Assembly (NCBI RefSeq): GCF_921294215.1
Contig: NZ_CAKLDM010000001.1
Span: 558,001 to 622,000, forward strand
Direction: 5' to 3'
DNA length: 64,000 nt
DNA from: Vibrio marisflavi CECT 7928
GTDB taxonomy: Bacteria > Pseudomonadota > Gammaproteobacteria > Enterobacterales > Vibrionaceae
The notes under the pieces are model-generated. The model made no database searches. It was not told the DNA's origin and saw nothing but the letters and a program-made list of their open reading frames with translations. Both the position numbers and the translations under genes were made by a program. Below, in pieces: positions 43,241-57,971 of this stretch. Numbering within the stretch: position 1 is the first letter of the stretch; each line of letters begins with the position of its first letter.

Positions 43241-43315
<75 letters not shown>

Positions 43316-43343
43316 GTTTCTCTCTTGATAATTACATTTCTAT

Positions 43344-43418
<75 letters not shown>

Positions 43419-43541
43419 TATAGCTTGATTCTAGCTATATTCTATCCCTGAAAATAAATAATTTTTTTGTTACACGAACCTATTAATATTTCGTTCGTCG
43501 GTAATATCTGATCGCGCACTCCATATGTATGATTTTTTGAG

Positions 43542-43572
43542 TTGAGACCAAATTGAGACCATGCTGAGACTA
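43542..43572. repeat. Three direct repeats with 11-bp spacing (possible integrase arm/Xis sites)
   Basis: TTGAGACCA at 43542 and 43553 and CTGAGACTA at 43564, each 11 bp apart, so on one face of the helix. They lie between the tRNA genes and the repressor, where arm-type recombinase or excisionase sites are expected. Confidence 0.5.
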
Positions 43573-43631
43573 AGTAAGTTTTACTAGCTATGCTCTCAAT
43601 TTTTAGAATCATCAGCTCAAAATTAGATAAA

Positions 43632-43844
43632 TTAATCTTGATCTTCTTTCTGAAGCTCGAGCAGCTCTCCAACGGTACAATTTAAGTACAAGCAAAGCTT
43701 TTCTAGTGTATCAAAGTCTATTCGGTTATTAGTTTCATGGAACAGTCGATTTACGGTACTTCTGTTTATTCCCGTATCCCTTACAACATCTGATATTTTT
43801 AACTTGTTCTTGCCGAGTAGAGTAGACAAATGGCACTTAATCAT
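43632..43844 (-). CDS. Cro/C1-type HTH repressor (70 aa)
   Basis: Small DNA-binding protein with a helix-turn-helix at about residues 16-40 (ISDVVRDTGINRSTVNRLFHE) and the C-terminal helices of the Cro/C1 (Xre) fold. It diverges from the excisionase-like gene. Two copies of a 22-bp motif and a strong promoter lie between them, so it most likely represses excisionase/integrase expression. Confidence 0.85.
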   Translation of the reverse strand: MIKCHLSTLLGKNKLKISDVVRDTGINRSTVNRLFHETNNRIDFDTLEKLCLYLNCTVGELLELQKEDQD

Positions 43845-43862
43845 TCTTAAAAGACCCTAAAT

Positions 43863-43936
43863 GTTTCTCTAAAGATACAAAATGGTATTGACAAGTTGCT
43901 TTTATGGTCATAGTGTATCTCTAGAGCTACAAAGTG
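43863..43936 (+). promoter_or_regulatory. Near-consensus promoter flanked by twin operators
   Basis: -35 TTGACA (43888-43893), spacer 17, -10 TAGTGT (43911-43916). Two similar 22-mers lie at 43863-43884 and 43915-43936, sharing TCTCTA.AG.TACAAA, with 52 bp between their starts (about five helical turns). The second covers the -10/start region. A dimer bound at each could loop out the promoter. Regulator assignment to the adjacent Cro/C1 protein is inference. Confidence 0.65.
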
Positions 43937-43960
43937 TAGCGTAAAAGACAGGGAATAATT

Positions 43961-44170
43961 ATGGCATATACCTACCTCACAACTGAAGAGTTATCTCAGT
44001 TAATCAAGTATGAAACGCGAGTAATCCGTGAGCAACTTAAAGATTCAGTGCTTTTTGAAGGTATTCATTATATTCGTCCGTTCGGAGGGCGAAAGATCTT
44101 GTTTATATGGGAAAGAGTTGAGGATGAAATGCTCAATGGCGTGACAGCAGAAAGTTTGTTGCTTAAATAG
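43961..44170 (+). CDS. Excisionase-like DNA-binding protein (69 aa)
   Basis: A small winged-helix-like protein starting MAYTYLTTEELSQLIKY and containing IHYIRPFGGRKILFIWERV, the pattern of the short excisionase-like partners found just before DUF3596-type integrases. It is the first gene after the operator-flanked promoter and is 10 bp from the integrase. It would bias recombination towards excision. Confidence 0.75.
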   Translation: MAYTYLTTEELSQLIKYETRVIREQLKDSVLFEGIHYIRPFGGRKILFIWERVEDEMLNGVTAESLLLK

Positions 44171-44180
44171 GAGATAAAGT

Positions 44181-45358
44181 ATGGGAACATTAAATGAGCG
44201 TAACGGTTTGTTGTTTCTTGATTTCCGATACAAAGGGTGCCGTTGCCGTGAATATACAAAGCTTGAAGATAACAAAGCTAATCGAGCTCGCGCCGCTAAA
44301 CTGCTTAAGAAAATAGAGGCTGAGATTGTTTTGGATACGTTTGACTATGGAAAGTATTTTCCAAACAGTAAACGTAAAGCCCAGTTTGCAGAAATTGAAG
44401 AAAGAAAATGGTCTGCGAAAAAATACTTCGATGCTCCAAGCTCTCCACGCTTTGAAGAGTTTGCTAAAACATGGATGGCGGAAAAGAAAGTCGAATGGAG
44501 CAAAAGCCACTACCTTGAAGTTGAAGGGATATTAAAGAAATATCTATATCCGACCTTCGGCAACAAGAAGATCAGCGCCATCAAGAAGAGCCAGATACTA
44601 CAGTTTCGCTCCATCCTCGCCAAAGTACCGGGACGAAAAAATGGCAGCTTAAGTGCTTCACGGATCAACCATATAATGACACCGTTACGAGTTCTCTTAA
44701 ATGAAGCCGCCGATCGATATGATTTTGCGTCGCTATGGAAAAACATTAAAGCGTTGAAAGTGGGGCGGACTGAAGTAGATCCATTTTCACTTGCTGAGGT
44801 CGATAAATTTCTGAAGCATGTGCCAGCCGATTATTTTGCTTACTATGTAACTCGCTTTTTTACAGGAATGCGAACTGGTGAAATTGATGGGTTAATGTGG
44901 GATGAGGTCGACCTAGAAAACAAAACGATTACCGTTAAGCAGGCATATACGCGTGGTGAGATCTCTAGCTTAAAAACCGAAGGCTCGTATCGAGTAATTA
45001 ATTTGATAGACAAGGTCGTAGACGCGCTGAGAAGCACCACAAGAATGTAACAACGGCAGATAAGTTTGTCTTTGCTAATGACAATGGTAAACCACTGAAT
45101 TACGACGTAGTTTCTCGGAATGTTTGGTATCCAACAATAGAAAAAGCGCAATTACGGCCTCGTAACCCTTATCAGACACGACATACATATGCGACTCTGC
45201 TACTTGCTTCTGGAGAGGCTCCGGAGTGGATTGCAAATCAAATGGGACATACAACGACGACAATGTTATTTCGCGTTTACTCTCGCTACGTCCCAAATTT
45301 AACTCGCAAAGATGGAACAGCATTTGAGGCTTTTTTATCCATGGAGGATGTGGAATGA
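44181..45358 (+). pseudogene. Tyrosine-recombinase integrase, frameshifted
   Basis: N-terminal arm-binding domain (MGTLNERNGLLFLDFRY, DUF3596-like), a core-binding SAM-like domain (about 95-190) and the catalytic domain. The first catalytic arginine is in FTGMRTGEIDGL. The frame breaks near 45035: it reads ALRSTTRM-stop at 45050, while the minus-one frame continues from KHHKNVTTADKF to RHTYATLLLASGE (HxxR), MGHTTT (H) and VYSRY (Tyr), ending at 45358. One A missing from an A run explains it. All catalytic residues remain, so this is either a recent inactivation or a sequencing error. Confidence 0.85.
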
Positions 45359-47328: not shown

Positions 47329-48228
47329 CTATTTATAGCAAGTGATACAAGCACCGCCGCCTTCTTCAAGATCGTACATTGCGTCCATATCCAACGTATC
47401 AATTAGCATGGTTTCGTCAACCATGGCATGCATGCCTAAGCGTCGCTTTCTCTCTCGTTTCTTTTTCTTTTCAAAACGTTCAATAACTTTTTGGTGGTTT
47501 GCTTTGATCTGCGCCACACGCTCTGGATCTTCAAGTGTTTCTAGTGGCTCATTCGGGCCCATCCAGAAAAACGTTTCACCGTTTTCACTTGTTTCAGCAC
47601 GCTTCTCATAGGACTTAGCTTCTTCAAAGGCTTCAGGATGACGTTCACGTAGGCGAACCCATTCAATCTTTCTTTGGAAAAAGCAGAACGTACAGCCAGA
47701 GCGAGAGCGCCAATCATAATATTTAGGAAGGCCAAGGCCTGCACTTTCCAAAATATCGAATACGCCTTGTTTTTTGATGCCATCTTCGGCAAATGGCATT
47801 TTAATAGTGAGATCTTTTTGGCTCTCATTTGGGCGGTAACCATCCCGCCAAGGCTCATCAGCTCGGATACCGACATAAGAAATAACCTCATAGCCTTGAT
47901 CAAGGAATGGTCGAATCCACTTTTCAAATGGTTCAAGCTTCATTCGAATGGTACACCAGCGTTGCTGACCTGCAGGCAAGTAGTTATTGTGCTGTGCCAA
48001 CCAGTAGTCAAAGTCTTTGCCACTGTTAATGTGTTTGATTGGTTTTCGGAGTTGGATCTCCAACCGTTCTAGAAAATCGTATACCTCTGGTAACTCTTTC
48101 CCTGTATCAGTAAAGAAGTATTCAATATCTAGTTCAGGATAATTTCTAGCCATATAGACCGCTAGGGCGGCACTGTCTTTTCCACCAGACAGTCCCAGTA
48201 CGTGCTTAACTTTTTTATCTTCACTCAT
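47329..48228 (-). CDS. PAPS-reductase/DndC-like PP-loop enzyme (299 aa)
   Basis: Adenine nucleotide alpha-hydrolase fold. The PP-loop SGGKDSA (14-20) and a C-terminal Cys motif (SGCTFCFFQRK, then IEWVRLRERHPE) are those of the phosphoadenosine phosphosulfate reductase family. The RWCTIRMK segment resembles DndC/SspD-type sulfur-modification enzymes more than assimilatory CysH, which ends ECGLH and lies in cys operons. A Lys/Arg-rich stretch (about 250-265) could bind nucleic acid. It is the middle gene of a three-gene minus-strand operon in an integrase island. Function inferred: nucleotide or DNA modification, possibly defence. Confidence 0.85.
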   Translation of the reverse strand: MSEDKKVKHVLGLSGGKDSAALAVYMARNYPELDIEYFFTDTGKELPEVYDFLERLEIQLRKPIKHINSGKDFDYWLAQHNNYLPAGQQRWCTIRMKLEPFEKWIRPFLDQGYEVISYVGIRADEPWRDGYRPNESQKDLTIKMPFAEDGIKKQGVFDILESAGLGLPKYYDWRSRSGCTFCFFQRKIEWVRLRERHPEAFEEAKSYEKRAETSENGETFFWMGPNEPLETLEDPERVAQIKANHQKVIERFEKKKKRERKRRLGMHAMVDETMLIDTLDMDAMYDLEEGGGACITCYK

Positions 48229-48244
48229 GAGTAATTCCTGTTCC

Positions 48245-48988
48245 TTAACCCTGAGCTTCCAATGTCTCTTTGAGCATTTGTTGTAATACGTTTATCCGAT
48301 CAAACTCGTCAAGTTCTACAAGCTGAGCTTTAATAGATTCAAGAGTTGAGGTGGCTTTTTTACTCTCAGCGATACGAATCTCTTTTTTATAAGATTGTAG
48401 CCTGCCATCTTCGCCTTCAAGTACAAGCGATACGAGCTTTGTCTTTCCGCTTTTTGTCTGCTTTTCATTGGAGGTGTGCTGGGACTTAACAACACTTAAA
48501 AAGTTCTGGGCGTAGTCGCTAATCCTGTTGGCTGCTGTTGAAAGTATTTCTTCATTCCAGTTGTGTTTAATACGACCAGAAATTGTTTGGATCATACTCT
48601 CAATCCAACTAATCAGGCCTTGCTCACTTTTCGCTAAGTCCAATGCAAAGTTTTGAAGGTTATTACTACCAGCATGTTTTGCAACAAAGTCACACATCAA
48701 AGCTAATTCTTTGCCTGTCTCTGGGAAGTAACTTTTGACGAGTTTTTTAAAGTTCAAAAGAGTGGATTCATGCTTGTCTTGCAAAATTTTAAAGCAGGTT
48801 TCAAGTTGTTCAATACGTTGTTCGTGACTTAATACACCTGTAGGGTCTAAACAATTAACAAGGTCAGTGAATAGTAATGCGTGAGGATCGTGAGCTTGAA
48901 GGAAAAGGTCACGAACAGAGATTACCAGCTTATTCTTCTCAATATCATTCGATACAAACTGGTGAGCATTTTTAACCCATTGAGGCAA
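48245..48988 (-). CDS. Unknown protein, first gene of PP-loop operon (247 aa)
   Basis: I do not recognise this protein. It is helical throughout, with no membrane segment. The C-terminal third has a basic KSGKTK... segment and ends in a leucine-rich helix. The start used is a TTG at 48988 without a clear ribosome site. The frame stays open upstream into the HTH remnant, so the true start is uncertain. It is 16 bp from the PP-loop gene, so cotranscription is very likely and a partnership in one system is suggested. Confidence 0.65.
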   Translation of the reverse strand: MPQWVKNAHQFVSNDIEKNKLVISVRDLFLQAHDPHALLFTDLVNCLDPTGVLSHEQRIEQLETCFKILQDKHESTLLNFKKLVKSYFPETGKELALMCDFVAKHAGSNNLQNFALDLAKSEQGLISWIESMIQTISGRIKHNWNEEILSTAANRISDYAQNFLSVVKSQHTSNEKQTKSGKTKLVSLVLEGEDGRLQSYKKEIRIAESKKATSTLESIKAQLVELDEFDRINVLQQMLKETLEAQG

Positions 48989-49199: not shown

Positions 49200-49253
49200 A
49201 GAGGGCCTCTGAACTTTCGCCTGAAAGTATCCGGCTTTAACAAAATAGAACAT

Positions 49254-49333
49254 TTCTGCCCCTTTCCAGCTTAGCATTAAAGATCACACACTCTCCGTTC
49301 ATCCTATTTTGCCATACTAGAGATTATCCGAGC
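49254..49333. repeat. 80-bp dispersed repeat, copy 1
   Basis: It begins TTCTGCCCCTTTCCAGCTTA and ends AGATTATCCGAGC. It is about 89 % identical, without gaps, to copy 3 at 57892-57971 in the same orientation. It sits between the HTH remnant and the GNAT gene. Confidence 0.8.
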
Positions 49334-49908: not shown

Positions 49909-50297
49909 CAAATAGAAAAAGTGTCACGAAATCGACATTTAAGTCCGGGTGTTGAGGAATCCTTAACACCGTATCACCAATTCAAAATTACCTTGTTTCA
50001 GATAGTTCATGGGTTACTAATTTAATTTGCTGCTGTAACTCATTTCTGCCCCATTCCCCGTTAGATCTTTTACTCATTCATATTTTATTAATCTGAAATT
50101 GCCCTACTCAAATTTATCCGATTGGGTTGATAACTTAGCGTTCCCGTTTTTAGGCGACATTTTGCAGCCTAGTATCCCCCTTAAGTACTTTAACCTATTG
50201 ATTACTAGTTGAATCGATATGAATAAGAGTGCATTATGTAAGAGTAAAAGGCGACAATTTGTCGGCTAATAAGCGTTATAACAACAAGGAGAGTTCC
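49909..50297. other. Interval between GNAT and dehydrogenase genes
   Basis: No gene. It contains the divergent repeat copy and, near its right end, the dehydrogenase promoter region. Confidence 0.45.
50044..50121. repeat. Dispersed repeat, divergent copy 2
   Basis: It shares TTCTGCCCC.TT, TTAGAT-like, TTGCC.TACT and TTATCCGA blocks in the same order with copies 1 and 3 but is much more diverged. It sits between the GNAT and dehydrogenase genes. Confidence 0.4.
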
Positions 50298-51242: not shown

Positions 51243-51396
51243 ACATCGGCATCGAGGAAGTCGTTGTTATAACGAACAATTTAAGCAGGTTCGCAATGCT
51301 TGGCATCTGAAGTTTGAATCATTTTTAGTGTGTACAGCACAATAGTGGCCGCGTTGTTCACCATTTAACGTGGCGCTATATAAACGGGAGCGTTCT

Positions 51397-51846: not shown

Positions 51847-52244
51847 GTGAATTGTGAGTAAATTTTCAAAGAATATTGCCCCGTATGTGATAGGCGAACA
51901 TTTTTGTAAACAATAAGTTGTTGAATGTTATTGCTTTCGATTGACTCCAAACAGTGAAGCTCTTTGTTACGAAACAGATGATACTCCTCCCAATTAATCA
52001 GAGCTTCCTCGAGTGACGCATAAATAAATATTGTGATCATAATCACATCGTTTGTGTGAACCTTGATTTGTATGTGTGAAATTGCGTATTAGATCACTAA
52101 ACTCACGCTTTCAACTACATTCATGATCAACATAGTCAAGGGAATTAGACTGCTCGCTGCTAGTCTGCGGGTGCTTTTTAGTGGAGTTTAAGCGTTTTCG
52201 TCATGTGTGAATAGCATTCTAAAACAAGCACTAAGGTAAATACG
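51847..52244. other. Upstream region of the HemB-like/MFS pair
   Basis: No supported gene. It holds the likely promoter of the HemB-like operon. A small dyad AGACT/AGTCT lies at about 52148-52167. Confidence 0.45.
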
Positions 52245-53411
52245 ATGTTCACGACGGCTAACTTAAATCGAAGAATTATTTTTAACAATGAAGCACAAGT
52301 ACATAAAAATCAATTTAGTCAGACCATAGATATTGACCTAGATCTTGAAGGTGTCGTACAGCGTCCATTGCAGAACTTGGCCGGATACTTCATTCGCTCA
52401 GTAGAATCTGCCCTTGAGTATACAAAGCAACTGATAGATAAGGGAATAACAAGTATCACGTATCGATTGGGTGGGGGACTTGAAACAGACGAATCTGATA
52501 GCTATGTATACGCGCCTCTATTGCTCAATTCAACTCCCAATGTTTGTGCAAGGTTTGATGCAGACAAAATACTTGATAAGCATGTCGGTTTTTATACTTT
52601 GTTACGTGAGTCCTTTCCAAAAGGACAGCTCCATATTACCGCCGACCCGTTTGGTATTGCGCCCAACTTATCAGATGGTGCTTGGGGAGCTCGAAACGAA
52701 AAGGGAGAGCTTGACGAAGAACAAACGTTTCTTCTGTTGGAAAAAATAGCGGATAAATACAGCGCTTGTGATGTCGATGCTCTACTAACGATGGGACGGG
52801 TAGAAAATGAGGTCGAAATTACCCGCAGTGTCATAGATAAAAACAATAGAACGACAAAAATTTATGCTTTTTCCCAAAATATCGAAAGCAAAGCGGCATA
52901 TGTCTATTTGGATAAACTGAATAAAGCTGACTCGTATCAAAAGATTCTACCGGGCAACATTTCTGAAATGAAAATTCGCACAATATTAGACATTTATGCA
53001 GGTGTGGATTCAATTATTGTCAAACCGTCGGAGAATCTTCATGTTATCCAATTCACCAAAGACTATGTGACTTCACCTGAAGTCGCGCTCTTGTTCCTTG
53101 AGTCGATTTTAGATAGTGATATTTTTGGTGATAGAAATGATATCCGCTCTGCCTGTGAGAAGGTACTGGCGGATAGAGCGACCTTCATTAAGAACTGCAC
53201 GAGAGTTACAATTGGTACATATGCCGTTTCTGGCGGCTATCTAATGGATAAGCTATTAGAAGACAATAAGGGCAAGGAATTTTCTTTCAACGTCCAGAAT
53301 GAGAAGTATCGAAATATCATTTCAATAATCGGTGACCGCATGGCGCACATAATTGATAGAAGTGCCGAGTCGTACTTTGATTTCATCGAGATTGGTGGTG
53401 CTAGTGAGTAA
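52245..53411 (+). CDS. Divergent HemB (delta-aminolevulinate dehydratase)-like enzyme (388 aa)
   Basis: TIM-barrel enzyme related to porphobilinogen synthase. Recognisable HemB blocks in order: the YRLGGGLETDE strand, LHITADPFG (where HemB has the metal loop), MGRVENEVE, KIYAFSQNIES, SIIVKPSENLHVI and IGTYAVSGGYLMD. K260 matches the main Schiff-base lysine (VKP). The other catalytic lysine (SxKY in HemB) is asparagine, N212. The Zn-cysteine loop has no cysteines. It is longer than HemB by about 50 residues at the C-terminus. It overlaps the MFS gene by 8 bases. It is probably not the haem enzyme but acts on a related ketone or amino-ketone (inference). Confidence 0.8.
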   Translation: MFTTANLNRRIIFNNEAQVHKNQFSQTIDIDLDLEGVVQRPLQNLAGYFIRSVESALEYTKQLIDKGITSITYRLGGGLETDESDSYVYAPLLLNSTPNVCARFDADKILDKHVGFYTLLRESFPKGQLHITADPFGIAPNLSDGAWGARNEKGELDEEQTFLLLEKIADKYSACDVDALLTMGRVENEVEITRSVIDKNNRTTKIYAFSQNIESKAAYVYLDKLNKADSYQKILPGNISEMKIRTILDIYAGVDSIIVKPSENLHVIQFTKDYVTSPEVALLFLESILDSDIFGDRNDIRSACEKVLADRATFIKNCTRVTIGTYAVSGGYLMDKLLEDNKGKEFSFNVQNEKYRNIISIIGDRMAHIIDRSAESYFDFIEIGGASE

Positions 53412-54639
53412 AAATAGTCGTTTAGGTGAGCCAACCCCGAGTAAGTATCGCTGGTTTATTCTTGGTGTCGGCGTCGTAGCACAAGCGGTCTTCGCCGCAG
53501 GGTTCACTGGTGTTGCGGTGAGCGGCGTCATTTTCAAAAATGAGTTTGGGTTTTCAATAAGTCAGCTCGGTATGATTTTGGGTGCTATAGGGCTAGGCGT
53601 TGGGATATCAGAATTTACATGGGGTTTAGCGACTGATAGGTTTGGAGATAAGAAAGTCCTTACATTTGGGCTTTTTTCAATGGGGCTGGCTTATAGTCTT
53701 ACGGCACTATTTTTGATGTTCGCAAGTCCAAACTATTTATCCCTTACACTGCTGCTATTTTTGGCAGGGGTTCTTGGTGGAAGCATTAACTCGTCATCTG
53801 GAAAAACCATTATGTCTTGGTTCTCTGATGGAGAGCGTGGGTTTGCGATGAGTATTCGTCAAACAGCCATTCCGGTGGGTGGTTCAATAGGCACGGTGTT
53901 GATACCATGGCTAGCTCAAAACAATGGCTTTTCAGCGTCATTTACCTTGCTAGCGATACTAAGTATTTTGACCTCGTTGATCATATGGCTCTTTGTCGTA
54001 GAAAAAAATCCCCATAATCACCAGGGTAAAGTGGCTCAAATCGATAACTCACCAATAGGGAATCCTAAAGTGTGGGGCATGGTCATATCTGCAGGACTAC
54101 TGACGGTGCCGCAAATGGCAGTTATTTCCTTTGGTGCGATCTATTTAAAGAACCATTTACACGTAAGTCTATTGAATGTTTCGTTGGCTCTTATCATCGT
54201 GCAAGTATTTGGTGCAATAACAAGAGTGTACCTAGGTAAATCCACAGATAGGAGAAATAACAGAATTGGTGTTGTTATTACAATAGCACTTGTCTGCGCC
54301 ATTATGAGTTTGTCATTGGCTCTGTTTACTCATCATGAGCTTTTGTCGATTACATTTTTAATCGCTGTTGGGGTATCAGGCAGTGCATGGCATGGTATCG
54401 GGTTCGCTGAAGCAGCAATTCAGGCTGGTGGAGCTCGAGCTGGAACCGCATTGGGGATGATGGGGACTACGGTATTTCTATCGTCGTTTCTAACACCCGT
54501 GATTATTTCTAATATTCTTCAACGGAATGATTGGCCCATTGCATGGGGAACAGTGTCTCTGCTGACAGTGCTCACTATTCCGATACTCTGTTACATGTAC
54601 TCTAGACAGCTTCGCCCTGAGGGAGCCGCGAAAGAGTAA
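53404..54639 (+). CDS. Major facilitator superfamily transporter (411 aa)
   Basis: Twelve-helix inner-membrane transporter. The MFS loop 2-3 motif is present as GLATDRFGDKKV, with a weaker copy (YLGKSTDRRNN) in the second half. The GTG start at 53404 lies inside the HemB-like gene (8-base overlap, GGTGG ribosome site), so the two are made together. Export of the product or import of the substrate of that enzyme is likely. The longer frame from 53353 overlaps too deeply. A terminator follows. Confidence 0.9.
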   Translation: MSKNSRLGEPTPSKYRWFILGVGVVAQAVFAAGFTGVAVSGVIFKNEFGFSISQLGMILGAIGLGVGISEFTWGLATDRFGDKKVLTFGLFSMGLAYSLTALFLMFASPNYLSLTLLLFLAGVLGGSINSSSGKTIMSWFSDGERGFAMSIRQTAIPVGGSIGTVLIPWLAQNNGFSASFTLLAILSILTSLIIWLFVVEKNPHNHQGKVAQIDNSPIGNPKVWGMVISAGLLTVPQMAVISFGAIYLKNHLHVSLLNVSLALIIVQVFGAITRVYLGKSTDRRNNRIGVVITIALVCAIMSLSLALFTHHELLSITFLIAVGVSGSAWHGIGFAEAAIQAGGARAGTALGMMGTTVFLSSFLTPVIISNILQRNDWPIAWGTVSLLTVLTIPILCYMYSRQLRPEGAAKE

Positions 54640-54663: not shown

Positions 54664-54695
54664 AAACCTATAGCTCGCATGTTATAGGTTTTTTT
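54664..54695 (+). terminator. Terminator of HemB-like/MFS operon
   Basis: AAACCTATA/TATAGGTTT, ten-base loop, followed by seven T. Confidence 0.9.
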
Positions 54696-55486: not shown

Positions 55487-56362
55487 TTAGCAGCTCCCAA
55501 TGTTTTTAGAAACCCGGTTGAGTAAATTCTTAATTGCACGTGATAGTATCTGATTCTGCCTTACAATATACCCCAGACTAACGTTCGGGAATTCAGGTAG
55601 TTCCGTAATGGTTGTTTTTAAATTCTTTTTGGAATGGAGTGAAAGGTCGGGAACTATCGCTATACCAAATCCAGCTTCTGCCCAATCAATTTGTGAATCA
55701 ACACTTCCTACTTCCATTATTCGATAGTTAGAAAGGTTTAGTGATGGTAAAGCTAAGTCAATTACACCTCGTGTACGTGTGTCGTGCCCTAGTAGTATCA
55801 GGGTAGGTTTATCATCTTTATTTTTTGCCAGCTTTTGCTGCCACATGTTTAAGCTGCTACCAACAGCGCACCACTTCACTTTTTGAAGCTCGGTAAAACA
55901 GAGTGGCGGCTTTTCCTCTTGTGCGAAGATGAATCCTAAATCTGCTTTGGCACTTTTTACTAACTCAGAAGCTTGTGAAGATGTGGTATTGGTTAAAGTG
56001 ATATCTATACCTGGAAATTCTTTTTTAAAGATCTGTAGCGGTGACATTAGCAACAGGCGAGAGATAATATCGCTGGCAGCGATAGTTAGCGTTCCATGGC
56101 GCAATTCGTTGATTGCGTTAATATCTGATTGACATATTTGTAATTCCATCAAGGTGTTTCTAGCACTTACAAGTAAACGCTCGCCTGCTTGAGTAAGCCT
56201 AAAAGGGGTTCGCTCGATCAGTTTAGTGCGAGTAGCCTGCTCTAGCTGTTTAATATGTAGACTAACATTAGGCTGAGTCATATTTAACTCATTCGCAGTT
56301 TTACCAAAGTGTCTCAGTCGCTCTAACTCTACAAATGTTTTAAGCCAACTAAGCTCCAACAT
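55487..56362 (-). CDS. LysR-family regulator divergent from PurA-like gene
   Basis: A 291-residue LysR protein. The HTH at 3-60 is LRHFGKTANELNMTQPNVSLHIKQLE in outline, then the linker and the effector domain. It is divergent from the adenylosuccinate-synthetase-like gene with 145 bp between, so that gene is its probable target. Effector unknown. Codon use is like its neighbours. Confidence 0.93.
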   Translation of the reverse strand: MLELSWLKTFVELERLRHFGKTANELNMTQPNVSLHIKQLEQATRTKLIERTPFRLTQAGERLLVSARNTLMELQICQSDINAINELRHGTLTIAASDIISRLLLMSPLQIFKKEFPGIDITLTNTTSSQASELVKSAKADLGFIFAQEEKPPLCFTELQKVKWCAVGSSLNMWQQKLAKNKDDKPTLILLGHDTRTRGVIDLALPSLNLSNYRIMEVGSVDSQIDWAEAGFGIAIVPDLSLHSKKNLKTTITELPEFPNVSLGYIVRQNQILSRAIKNLLNRVSKNIGSC

Positions 56363-56507: not shown

Positions 56508-57764
56508 ATGTCGTCAGTTATTGTAGTTGGTGCAAATTGGGGTGATGAAGGGAAAGGTAGAATAGTTGATTATTTGGCGGACCAAGCATCTGCGAGTATT
56601 CGTTTTCAAGGTGGTAATAATGCTGGCCATACAGTGATAAATGACTATGGTAGTTTCAAACTACACCAATTACCCAGTGGAGTTTTTGGTCCAAGCTGTA
56701 GCGCTGTTTTGGGGCCAGGTATGGTAATTAGCCCAGCGTCACTATCGCAAGAGATTTCATTGGTGAAAGAAGCGGGGGTTGAAGTCGATCTACGTATTTC
56801 AGATCGAGCGACGCTTTGCTTGCCTCTCCATGCACTAGAGGATACCCTCGAAGAGCAACGTCTTGGTGAAAAAGCATATGGTTCAACTCGTCAGGGGATC
56901 GCTCCAGCATATGGTGACCGAGTTATGAAAAAGGGAATCCTTGTTGGTTGGTTAAAGCAACCAGATGTGTTACTTGAGCGTATACAGTTTATGTTGGATT
57001 GGAAATTGCCTCAACTTCGTGCTCTGTACCCTGAGTTTGAATTCAATCAAACTGCGGAGGAGATAACGTCTTGGTTAATTGAAGTATCCAAGAGTTGGGC
57101 CGACTCTATCTGTAACGTATCTCAGCACTTGAAAGCATTGCAAGTTCAGGGCAAAACTCTATTGTTTGAAGCTCAGCTAGGGGCAGGTCGTGATCTTGTT
57201 TACGGAGAATACCCTTGGACAACGTCTTCTAACGTGGTTTCTATGTATGCTGGTATTGGTAGTGGGTTACCAGCGCTGCGTCCTGATCGTATCGTCGCTG
57301 TAGCCAAAGCATTCAGCTCATCTGTAGGTACAGGGACACTAATATCCGCCATGGCAGAGCAAGATTCATTTCGTGAATTGTCTGGGGAGTATGGTGCTAC
57401 AACCGGACGTCCACGAGATGTCGGGTATTTCGATGCTATTGCAACAAAAAATGGCATTGAACTACAAGCTGCTACTGAAATCGCTCTCACTAAGCTAGAT
57501 TGCTTAACGGGTCTTGAAGATCTAAAAATATGTGTTGGCTATGAGGGTGAGCATAGCGAAAACCCGATTTGGCCTCAAACTGCTGCATTATCTCCAGTTT
57601 ATGAAAAAATGGCGAGCTGGGATGAAGATATTACAGGGTGTCGAAAATTTGAAGAGTTACCAGAAGCAACACAAAATTATATTACCCGTATTGAAGAGTT
57701 AATGGGAATACCTGTAAGTATGATATCAGTGGGTCCTGAACGCGAACAAATTATTATACGTTGA
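56508..57764 (+). CDS. Adenylosuccinate-synthetase paralogue (PurA-like ligase, 418 aa)
   Basis: GTP-dependent ligase of the PurA fold. Catalytic D13 (GDEGKG) and H41 (NNAGHT), the aspartate-binding loop GATTGRPR (297-303) and the guanine motif TKLD (328-331) are kept. The IMP-contact loop FEGAQG of true PurA is FEAQLG, and GTTGRGIGPAY is changed to GSTRQGIAPAY. It is also about 12 residues shorter. It likely joins aspartate to a substrate other than IMP, or is a divergent duplicate. Because D13 is kept it is not the phage PurZ type. Divergent LysR gene next door. Confidence 0.85.
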   Translation: MSSVIVVGANWGDEGKGRIVDYLADQASASIRFQGGNNAGHTVINDYGSFKLHQLPSGVFGPSCSAVLGPGMVISPASLSQEISLVKEAGVEVDLRISDRATLCLPLHALEDTLEEQRLGEKAYGSTRQGIAPAYGDRVMKKGILVGWLKQPDVLLERIQFMLDWKLPQLRALYPEFEFNQTAEEITSWLIEVSKSWADSICNVSQHLKALQVQGKTLLFEAQLGAGRDLVYGEYPWTTSSNVVSMYAGIGSGLPALRPDRIVAVAKAFSSSVGTGTLISAMAEQDSFRELSGEYGATTGRPRDVGYFDAIATKNGIELQAATEIALTKLDCLTGLEDLKICVGYEGEHSENPIWPQTAALSPVYEKMASWDEDITGCRKFEELPEATQNYITRIEELMGIPVSMISVGPEREQIIIR

Positions 57765-57891
57765 TTTCAAGCTAGGTCCTTTTCATTTATAGTCACAGCG
57801 ACTGTCAAGCATCATGTCTCTTTATATAGAGACATGGGCTAAAAGCCAAATTTGTTCGATTGATGCCGATAGTGCACAAATCTTAGAAAGC

Positions 57892-57971
57892 TTCTGCCCC
57901 TATCAAGCTTAGCATTTAAGATAACATACGCTCCGTTCATCCTATTTTGCCTTACTACAGATTATCCAAGC
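57892..57971. repeat. 80-bp dispersed repeat, copy 3
   Basis: It begins TTCTGCCCCTATCAAGCTTA and ends AGATTATCCAAGC. It matches copy 1 at 49254-49333 in the same orientation with about nine mismatches in 80. It sits just before an IS66 transposase relic. Confidence 0.8.

Follow-up and report, generated by a model that had tools for sequence, protein, structure and literature searches.

A rare HemB-like branch of the ALAD family with an apparently rebuilt active site, encoded beside an MFS transporter gene in Vibrio marisflavi

Introduction

To our knowledge, enzymes of the ALAD family have been described only as porphobilinogen synthases (PBGS, HemB). The roles of the two Schiff-base lysines and of the zinc cysteines of HemB are laid out in PMC7725820, PMC6262466 and PMC7242693, and it is the P-side Schiff base that forms first according to PMC7725820. 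The PBGS of R. capsulatus is metal-independent (PMC535902), and Zur-type HemB2 paralogues are expected to be active with magnesium or potassium (PMC2770081).

Here, we analysed a stretch of 64,000 nucleotides from Vibrio marisflavi CECT 7928, referred to below as the window, which belongs to a genome of 4.78 Mb in 8 contigs. An earlier note, based on the letters of this DNA, had singled out a HemB-like gene followed by an MFS gene. We examined the family membership of the HemB-like protein, its active-site positions, its relatives and its gene neighbourhoods.

Results

Layout of the HemB-like and MFS genes

The HemB-like and MFS genes are read as a two-gene operon, with the following elements:

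52032..52047, + strand: perfect match to the CRP-type palindrome TGTGA-N6-TCACA, some 200 bases 5' of the operon
52245..53411, + strand: HemB-like (ALAD-family) gene, 388 aa; ATG-start ORF with a PF00490 match
53404..54639, + strand: MFS transporter gene, 411 aa; GTG start; PF07690 match of 150.8 bits (scan read from 53401)
54664..54691, + strand: terminator-like stem-loop with a T-run, directly 3' of the MFS gene

The end of the HemB-like ORF and the start of the MFS ORF share 8 bases, just as the earlier note had described. The palindrome, whose pattern we take to be the CRP consensus, is the sole exact match in the window, where 0.09 are expected, and such a match is present in 9 of 100 shuffles; when one mismatch is allowed, the window holds 2 CRP-type sites against 2.6 expected. 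The stem-loop has a folding energy of -12.9 kcal/mol (z -4.29) and none of 200 shuffles is as good. Across the region, 4 terminator-like sites are seen for 2.7 expected, and promoter-like sites are at chance level (8 seen, 8.0 expected). We infer that the two genes are co-transcribed and controlled by CRP. A foreign base composition of the operon was also considered and finds no support, the GC content being 0.404 and 0.446 as compared with 0.415 for the window. PADLOC matched neither of the two proteins.

Surroundings of the operon

To the left of the operon, two identical tRNA-Gly (TCC) genes are followed by an integrase gene (43241-45050), and this stretch is likely an integration hotspot; a search for an att repeat of the tRNA end returned no exact 14-base repeat apart from the tandem tRNA copies. 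At 47329-48988, on the minus strand, an SspD-like gene (PADLOC SspD, 415.9 bits) adjoins a 247-aa ORF whose match to SspC is confined to the C-terminal part (865-1036 of 1045), an arrangement suggestive of an incomplete Ssp phosphorothioation defence locus. An attC-like stretch (51258-51382), presumably an attC, separates a 2-hydroxyacid dehydrogenase gene from a NUDIX gene; 10 similar stretches are found within 112 kb on one contig of another genome of the same genus, as in a superintegron. An 88-base dispersed repeat is present in three copies around the operon (49246-49333, 50036-50123 and 57884-57971), with 60-100% identity to the first.

On the other side, a second adenylosuccinate-synthetase-like (PurA-like) gene (56508-57764), 39% identical to the other copy of the genome, is accompanied by a divergent LysR gene (55487-56362). 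We rejected these two genes as part of the system: they are side by side in all four of the other 19.5-kb stretches of the same genus that were compared (the best of 14 other matching genomes among 31), and tblastn found no HemB-like or MFS match in these stretches at 1e-10.

The HemB-like protein belongs to the ALAD family

The earlier note had recognised the HemB blocks in their usual order and had proposed a HemB Pfam search as a check. This search agrees with it: PF00490 matches the 388-aa protein with 29.9 bits (E 4.1e-07), above the gathering cut-off of 24.6, over residues 138-280 only. In addition, the family alignment is matched to HemB by HHalign with a probability of 98-99%, and a PDB search with the family profile returned ALAD structures for all 24 sequences at E up to 1, the best at 1.1e-05. 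The protein fails the NCBIfam porphobilinogen-synthase equivalog cut-off, with 25.2 bits vs 297. Two complete HemBs (471 and 433 bits) are encoded elsewhere in the same genome, and the HemB-like gene should thus be dispensable for heme.

One Schiff-base lysine is kept and the other half-site is altered

The family alignment (A3) comprises 14 rows. P0002, which is listed as the window's own protein, was left out, together with P0004, which does not contain the K260 stretch, P0007, a near copy of P0006 that was restored for the tree, and P0013, a fragment. As controls we used 38 HemBs picked by homology, of which 13 are from the same genus (two of them from the same genome), 24 are from elsewhere in the phylum and one is from the genome of a Methylocystaceae relative described below. 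The HemB set of a first HHalign comparison had been chosen by motifs that include both lysines and was not used as a control. The roles of active-site residues other than the two lysines and the cysteines, including that of R215 of P. aeruginosa as the A-site arginine, are those that we presume for HemB. The positions that matter most are listed here by codon:

52878..52880, + strand: N212, at the HemB A-site Schiff-base lysine by MAFFT and HMMER; N in 14/14 rows
52890..52892, + strand: K216, the choice of HHalign for the A-site lysine; K in 11 and R in 3 of 14 rows
52941..52943, + strand: K233, invariant lysine beside invariant Q232 and candidate second active-site lysine; K in 14/14 rows
53022..53024, + strand: K260 (VKP), equivalent of the HemB P-site Schiff-base lysine by HHalign, MAFFT and HMMER; K in 14/14 rows
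53076..53204, + strand: insertion of about 43 residues that is absent from HemB; limits approximate and set by hand

The P-site and A-site lysines are both K in 38/38 HemB controls. K260 falls on the P-site lysine by HHalign, by all four MAFFT strategies and by HMMER for 38/38 HemBs, so the reading of the earlier note that this lysine is kept holds for all 14 family rows. Its second statement, that the other lysine is missing, holds at the level of the family and is less firm for the window protein taken alone. N212 is placed on the A-site lysine by 4/4 MAFFT strategies, and by HMMER for 13 of the 14 family proteins against the HemB profile and for 37 of the 38 HemBs against the family profile. 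By eye, the N of FSQN is present in all 17 database matches and the lysine of VKP or IKP in 16 of them, P0004 being without that stretch. HHalign, on the other hand, introduces a gap of four residues in 10/10 settings and thereby aligns K216 with the A-site lysine, as it did in both runs of the first comparison. Since position 216 is an arginine in three of the 14 rows, it does not provide a family-wide Schiff-base or catalytic lysine. Altogether, the A-site Schiff-base lysine appears to be absent from the family, a conclusion that is less certain, and not airtight, for the window protein on its own.

Among the 72 columns that are invariant across the 14 rows, which include K260, D134 and S329, the only lysines are K233 and K260. 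K233, which the earlier note had overlooked, is aligned with the HemB A-site glutamine Q233 by MAFFT and adjoins it by HHalign. It could be a carboxylate binder or a second lysine that has moved.

The metal positions and the A-site arginine differ as well. The metal positions 131 and 139 (P. aeruginosa numbering) are D or C in 38/38 HemBs and correspond to I138 and W147 in the window protein, with I, L or V at 138 and W at 147 in 14/14 rows. No column of the family alignment is an invariant cysteine, which bears out the remark that zinc cysteines are lacking. We nevertheless dropped their absence as a distinguishing mark, since 17 of the 38 HemB controls have an Asp in place of the zinc Cys, all 17 with both lysines kept. 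The A-site arginine, R in 38/38 HemBs, is replaced by L222 in 14/14 family rows according to MAFFT. Other positions are shared with HemB, namely D134 (D in 38/38 HemBs) and S329 (S in 37/38). The C-terminal tyrosine of HemB (38/38) aligns by MAFFT with Ile369, a position that is I in 12 and S in two of the 14 rows; D371-R372, two residues further on, is invariant in the family and we draw no inference from it.

The extra length of the protein is not located where it had been expected. Instead of a C-terminal extension of about 50 residues, as noted earlier, we found the insertion listed above between K260 and VSG, followed by a tail of HemB length. The distance from K260 to the serine of VSG is 69 residues in the window protein and 69-70 in 13/14 family rows (P0011 was not measurable by pattern), against 26 from the P-site lysine to VSG in all of the 32 HemBs, out of 38, that could be measured by pattern. 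After VSG, 60 residues remain in the window protein, as compared with 51-69 in the HemBs measured.

A rare and scattered subfamily

Among the best 7999 candidates scored out of about 5.8 billion proteins, 17 belong to the subfamily, one of them being the window's own; an earlier search had given 13. They come from at least three phyla, and the named sources are Vibrio tetraodonis, a Methylocystaceae metagenome-assembled genome (MAG), Sphingobium indicum, Priestia endophytica and Nocardia vulneris. The closest named homologue among the matches listed, from V. tetraodonis, is 85% identical. The database copy of the window's protein (P0002, 374 aa, on a contig of 81,740 bases) differs from the window translation (52245-52500) at the N-terminus and in one short internal stretch, and these discrepancies look like frame differences between two assemblies.

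In overlapping samples of genomes, a strong match was obtained in 1 of 227 from the genus (637 bits), 1 of 394 from the order and 1 of 398 from the phylum, in each case the genome of the window itself; in the class of genome G261, none of 385 sampled genomes had a HemB-like match in a search run without a positive control. A further 112 genomes of the genus sample matched at 28 bits or less. These matches are taken to be ordinary HemB, an assignment that holds for all 11 of the 112 that we examined. Two peptide patterns run on 84,980 species genomes gave 43 matches, a single one of which is a locus of the subfamily (L004, the Methylocystaceae MAG), and 72,556 plasmid records gave no match at 1e-5, with the proviso in both cases that records near the window may be omitted. 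Viral contigs gave 45 pattern matches, none of them a relative.

In the tree, 15 family rows are split from 8 HemB rows (8 of the 38 controls, all from one phylum) with 100/100 support and by a very long branch. The proteins of Vibrio, Methylocystaceae and Sphingobium form one group with metagenome rows, again with 100/100 support, and those of Nocardia and Priestia fall outside it. Because so few members are spread over three phyla, this distribution suggests transfer combined with many losses. We regard the subfamily as a very rare, old and scattered branch of the ALAD (HemB) family.

The homologues are named in their sources "hypothetical protein", "delta-aminolevulinic acid dehydratase" or "porphobilinogen synthase". 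Among the papers listed we found none on such a subfamily and no characterised member, in a literature coverage that leaves out most subscription journals; accordingly, no homologue is known to us to have been proved an ordinary porphobilinogen synthase, an outcome that would have spoken against the earlier interpretation.

Neighbourhood of the Methylocystaceae relative

In L004, LysR and LysE genes lie on the left of the HemB-like gene, and a B12-binding radical SAM gene and an EamA gene come after it. The right-hand side, on the opposite strand, has genes for a fused anthranilate synthase, LuxR, PhyH, LuxI and another LuxR, and then a recombinase gene; ORF reading places conjugation-type genes further left. 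By analogy, this setting resembles a secondary-metabolite cluster. The constant pairing with an MFS gene, which the earlier note had proposed to check, therefore fails in the second of the two neighbourhoods read, where radical SAM, EamA and LysE genes are found instead. A transporter gene is nearby in both loci and its type differs.

The L004 radical SAM protein scores 164 bits for tryptophan 2-C-methyltransferase (cut-off 500) and 195 for a lipid-type B12 family (cut-off 360). After a near-copy that is 98% identical, its closest homologue is from Sphingobium indicum, in which the radical SAM and the HemB-like genes are found on contigs of 55,709 bases each, presumably one and the same contig. 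The lengths of the other contigs with a HemB-like gene do not recur among the radical SAM homologues listed, so that the pairing is limited, as far as that list goes, to these two cases. In the genome of the window, a search without a positive control gave no match to this protein, and because the radical SAM partner was not found there, the pathway may differ between members.

The MFS partner

The best NCBIfam matches of the MFS protein are to organic-anion and phosphate-ester transporters, by name the galactonate, phosphoglycerate and glycerol-3-phosphate transporters. These scores all fall far short of the cut-offs, and efflux families match more weakly still. The galactonate, phosphoglycerate and glycerol-3-phosphate transporter families are uptake families. 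In the PDB, GlpT (1pw4) alone matches at E up to 1e-5. The role of exporter that the earlier note gave to the MFS protein is putative.

Discussion

In this study, we describe a HemB-like protein whose features are not those of an ordinary porphobilinogen synthase. This conclusion, which was also that of the earlier note, is supported by the two full HemBs of the genome and by the alteration, in 14/14 rows, of the A-site lysine (by MAFFT and HMMER), of the A-site arginine and of the metal positions. As far as alignments can tell, the conserved active-site change is well supported and unusual. Of what the earlier note had observed, the blocks, K260, N212 as placed by MAFFT and HMMER, the lack of zinc cysteines and the overlap stand, while the C-terminal extension does not; its interpretation is upheld in part, for the departure from ordinary PBG synthesis and not for a constant MFS partner.

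The protein probably makes or breaks another small molecule. Our preferred reading, to which we give barely less than an even chance, is that the operon serves a small metabolite outside heme synthesis, with a single-Schiff-base enzyme of class I aldolase type in place of PBG synthesis and an MFS protein that moves its product or substrate. K260 would bind a single carbonyl compound (ALA or a different keto acid) through a Schiff base, in the manner of the HemB P-site lysine. The A-site would have been rebuilt: Asn takes the place of Lys and Leu that of Arg, hydrophobic residues stand at the metal-ligand positions, and K233 is invariant. In a second half-site that has neither the other lysine nor the metal nor the A-site arginine, a compound different from ALA would be expected, which suggests a class I aldolase-type reaction. 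Once formed, the enamine or imine of this compound bound at K260 may condense with, or be split from, another partner that is not bound as a second Schiff base, in a reaction of the class I aldolase type, and the co-translated MFS protein would transport either product or substrate over the membrane.

Other explanations share part of this evidence. The protein could still be a two-lysine enzyme in which the second lysine has moved, K233 (or K216) then acting at the A-site; two Schiff bases would still be made, though not on a pair of ALA molecules. That K233 is K in 14/14 rows, beside the invariant Q232 and at or next to the HemB A-site Gln, argues for it, as does the placement of K216 on the A-site lysine in all ten HHalign settings; but three rows have Arg at 216, MAFFT and HMMER set N212 at the A-site lysine and K233 lies 21 residues past N212, so that we regard this explanation as unlikely, though deserving of serious weight. 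It is also conceivable, if rather improbable in our view, that the pair is catabolic, the MFS protein importing an organic anion that the HemB-like protein cleaves by retro-aldol, perhaps under CRP control. The exact CRP-type site upstream (0.09 expected in the window), GlpT as the single PDB match (E up to 1e-5) and the galactonate, phosphoglycerate and glycerol-3-phosphate families as best matches, albeit far below cut-off, are consistent with uptake and breakdown. Yet the operon is without any other catabolic gene, the MFS protein has weak matches to efflux families too, and the neighbours of the L004 relative are LysE, EamA and quorum-sensing genes, not catabolic genes.

With one catalytic lysine and the metal site gone, the protein could also be a catalytically dead ALAD relative serving as a ligand sensor or regulator. 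We find this very improbable, given that K260, D134 and S329 are among the 72 invariant columns of the 14 rows and that the gene overlaps one for a transporter, not a regulator. Scarcely credible, finally, is a divergent but working porphobilinogen synthase: the Pfam ALAD cut-off is passed, the P-site lysine, the Asp and the Ser are kept and a metal-independent PBGS exists (PMC535902), but the A-site Lys (by MAFFT and HMMER) and Arg are altered in 14/14 rows, the genome has two full HemBs and the equivalog score of 25.2 bits is far from 297.

If the single-Schiff-base reading is right, a subfamily spread over three phyla, in which one Schiff-base lysine is retained and the other half-site remodelled, would show that the ALAD fold has been recruited for different chemistry and would point to a small-molecule pathway so far undescribed. 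More broadly, and more tentatively, we propose an undescribed ALAD branch outside tetrapyrrole synthesis, in which a metal-free single-Schiff-base enzyme would form C-C (or C-N) bonds and be carried on mobile metabolite clusters in several phyla, with nothing but a transporter in Vibrio and with a B12-radical SAM enzyme in alphaproteobacteria, for a small molecule that would be exported. Because it is a minimal two-gene operon, the Vibrio system is easy to test.

Compared with porphobilinogen synthase (HemB, ALAD; PF00490), the HemB-like family has in common the order of the blocks, the RR...MPG N-terminal stretch (by HHalign), the VKP lysine, the TDV-type Asp and the VSG-Y motif. It differs by the change of the A-site Lys to Asn (MAFFT, HMMER) and of the A-site Arg to Leu, by hydrophobic residues at the metal positions, by the replacement of the PSDMMDGR block, by the 43-residue insertion between VKP and VSG and by its failure at the PBGS equivalog cut-off. 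With the Zur-type HemB2 proteins, which are zinc-free PBGS paralogues, it shares the situation of a HemB paralogue without zinc Cys in a genome with another HemB; the Asp-type HemBs (17 controls) keep both lysines, whereas the HemB-like family does not. Finally, the single Schiff-base lysine of our proposed mechanism is a feature in common with class I aldolases such as LsrF, DERA and ADH synthase, as presented in PMC2728841, but the HemB-like protein differs from these in matching ALAD only, both in the Pfam scan and in the PDB searches.
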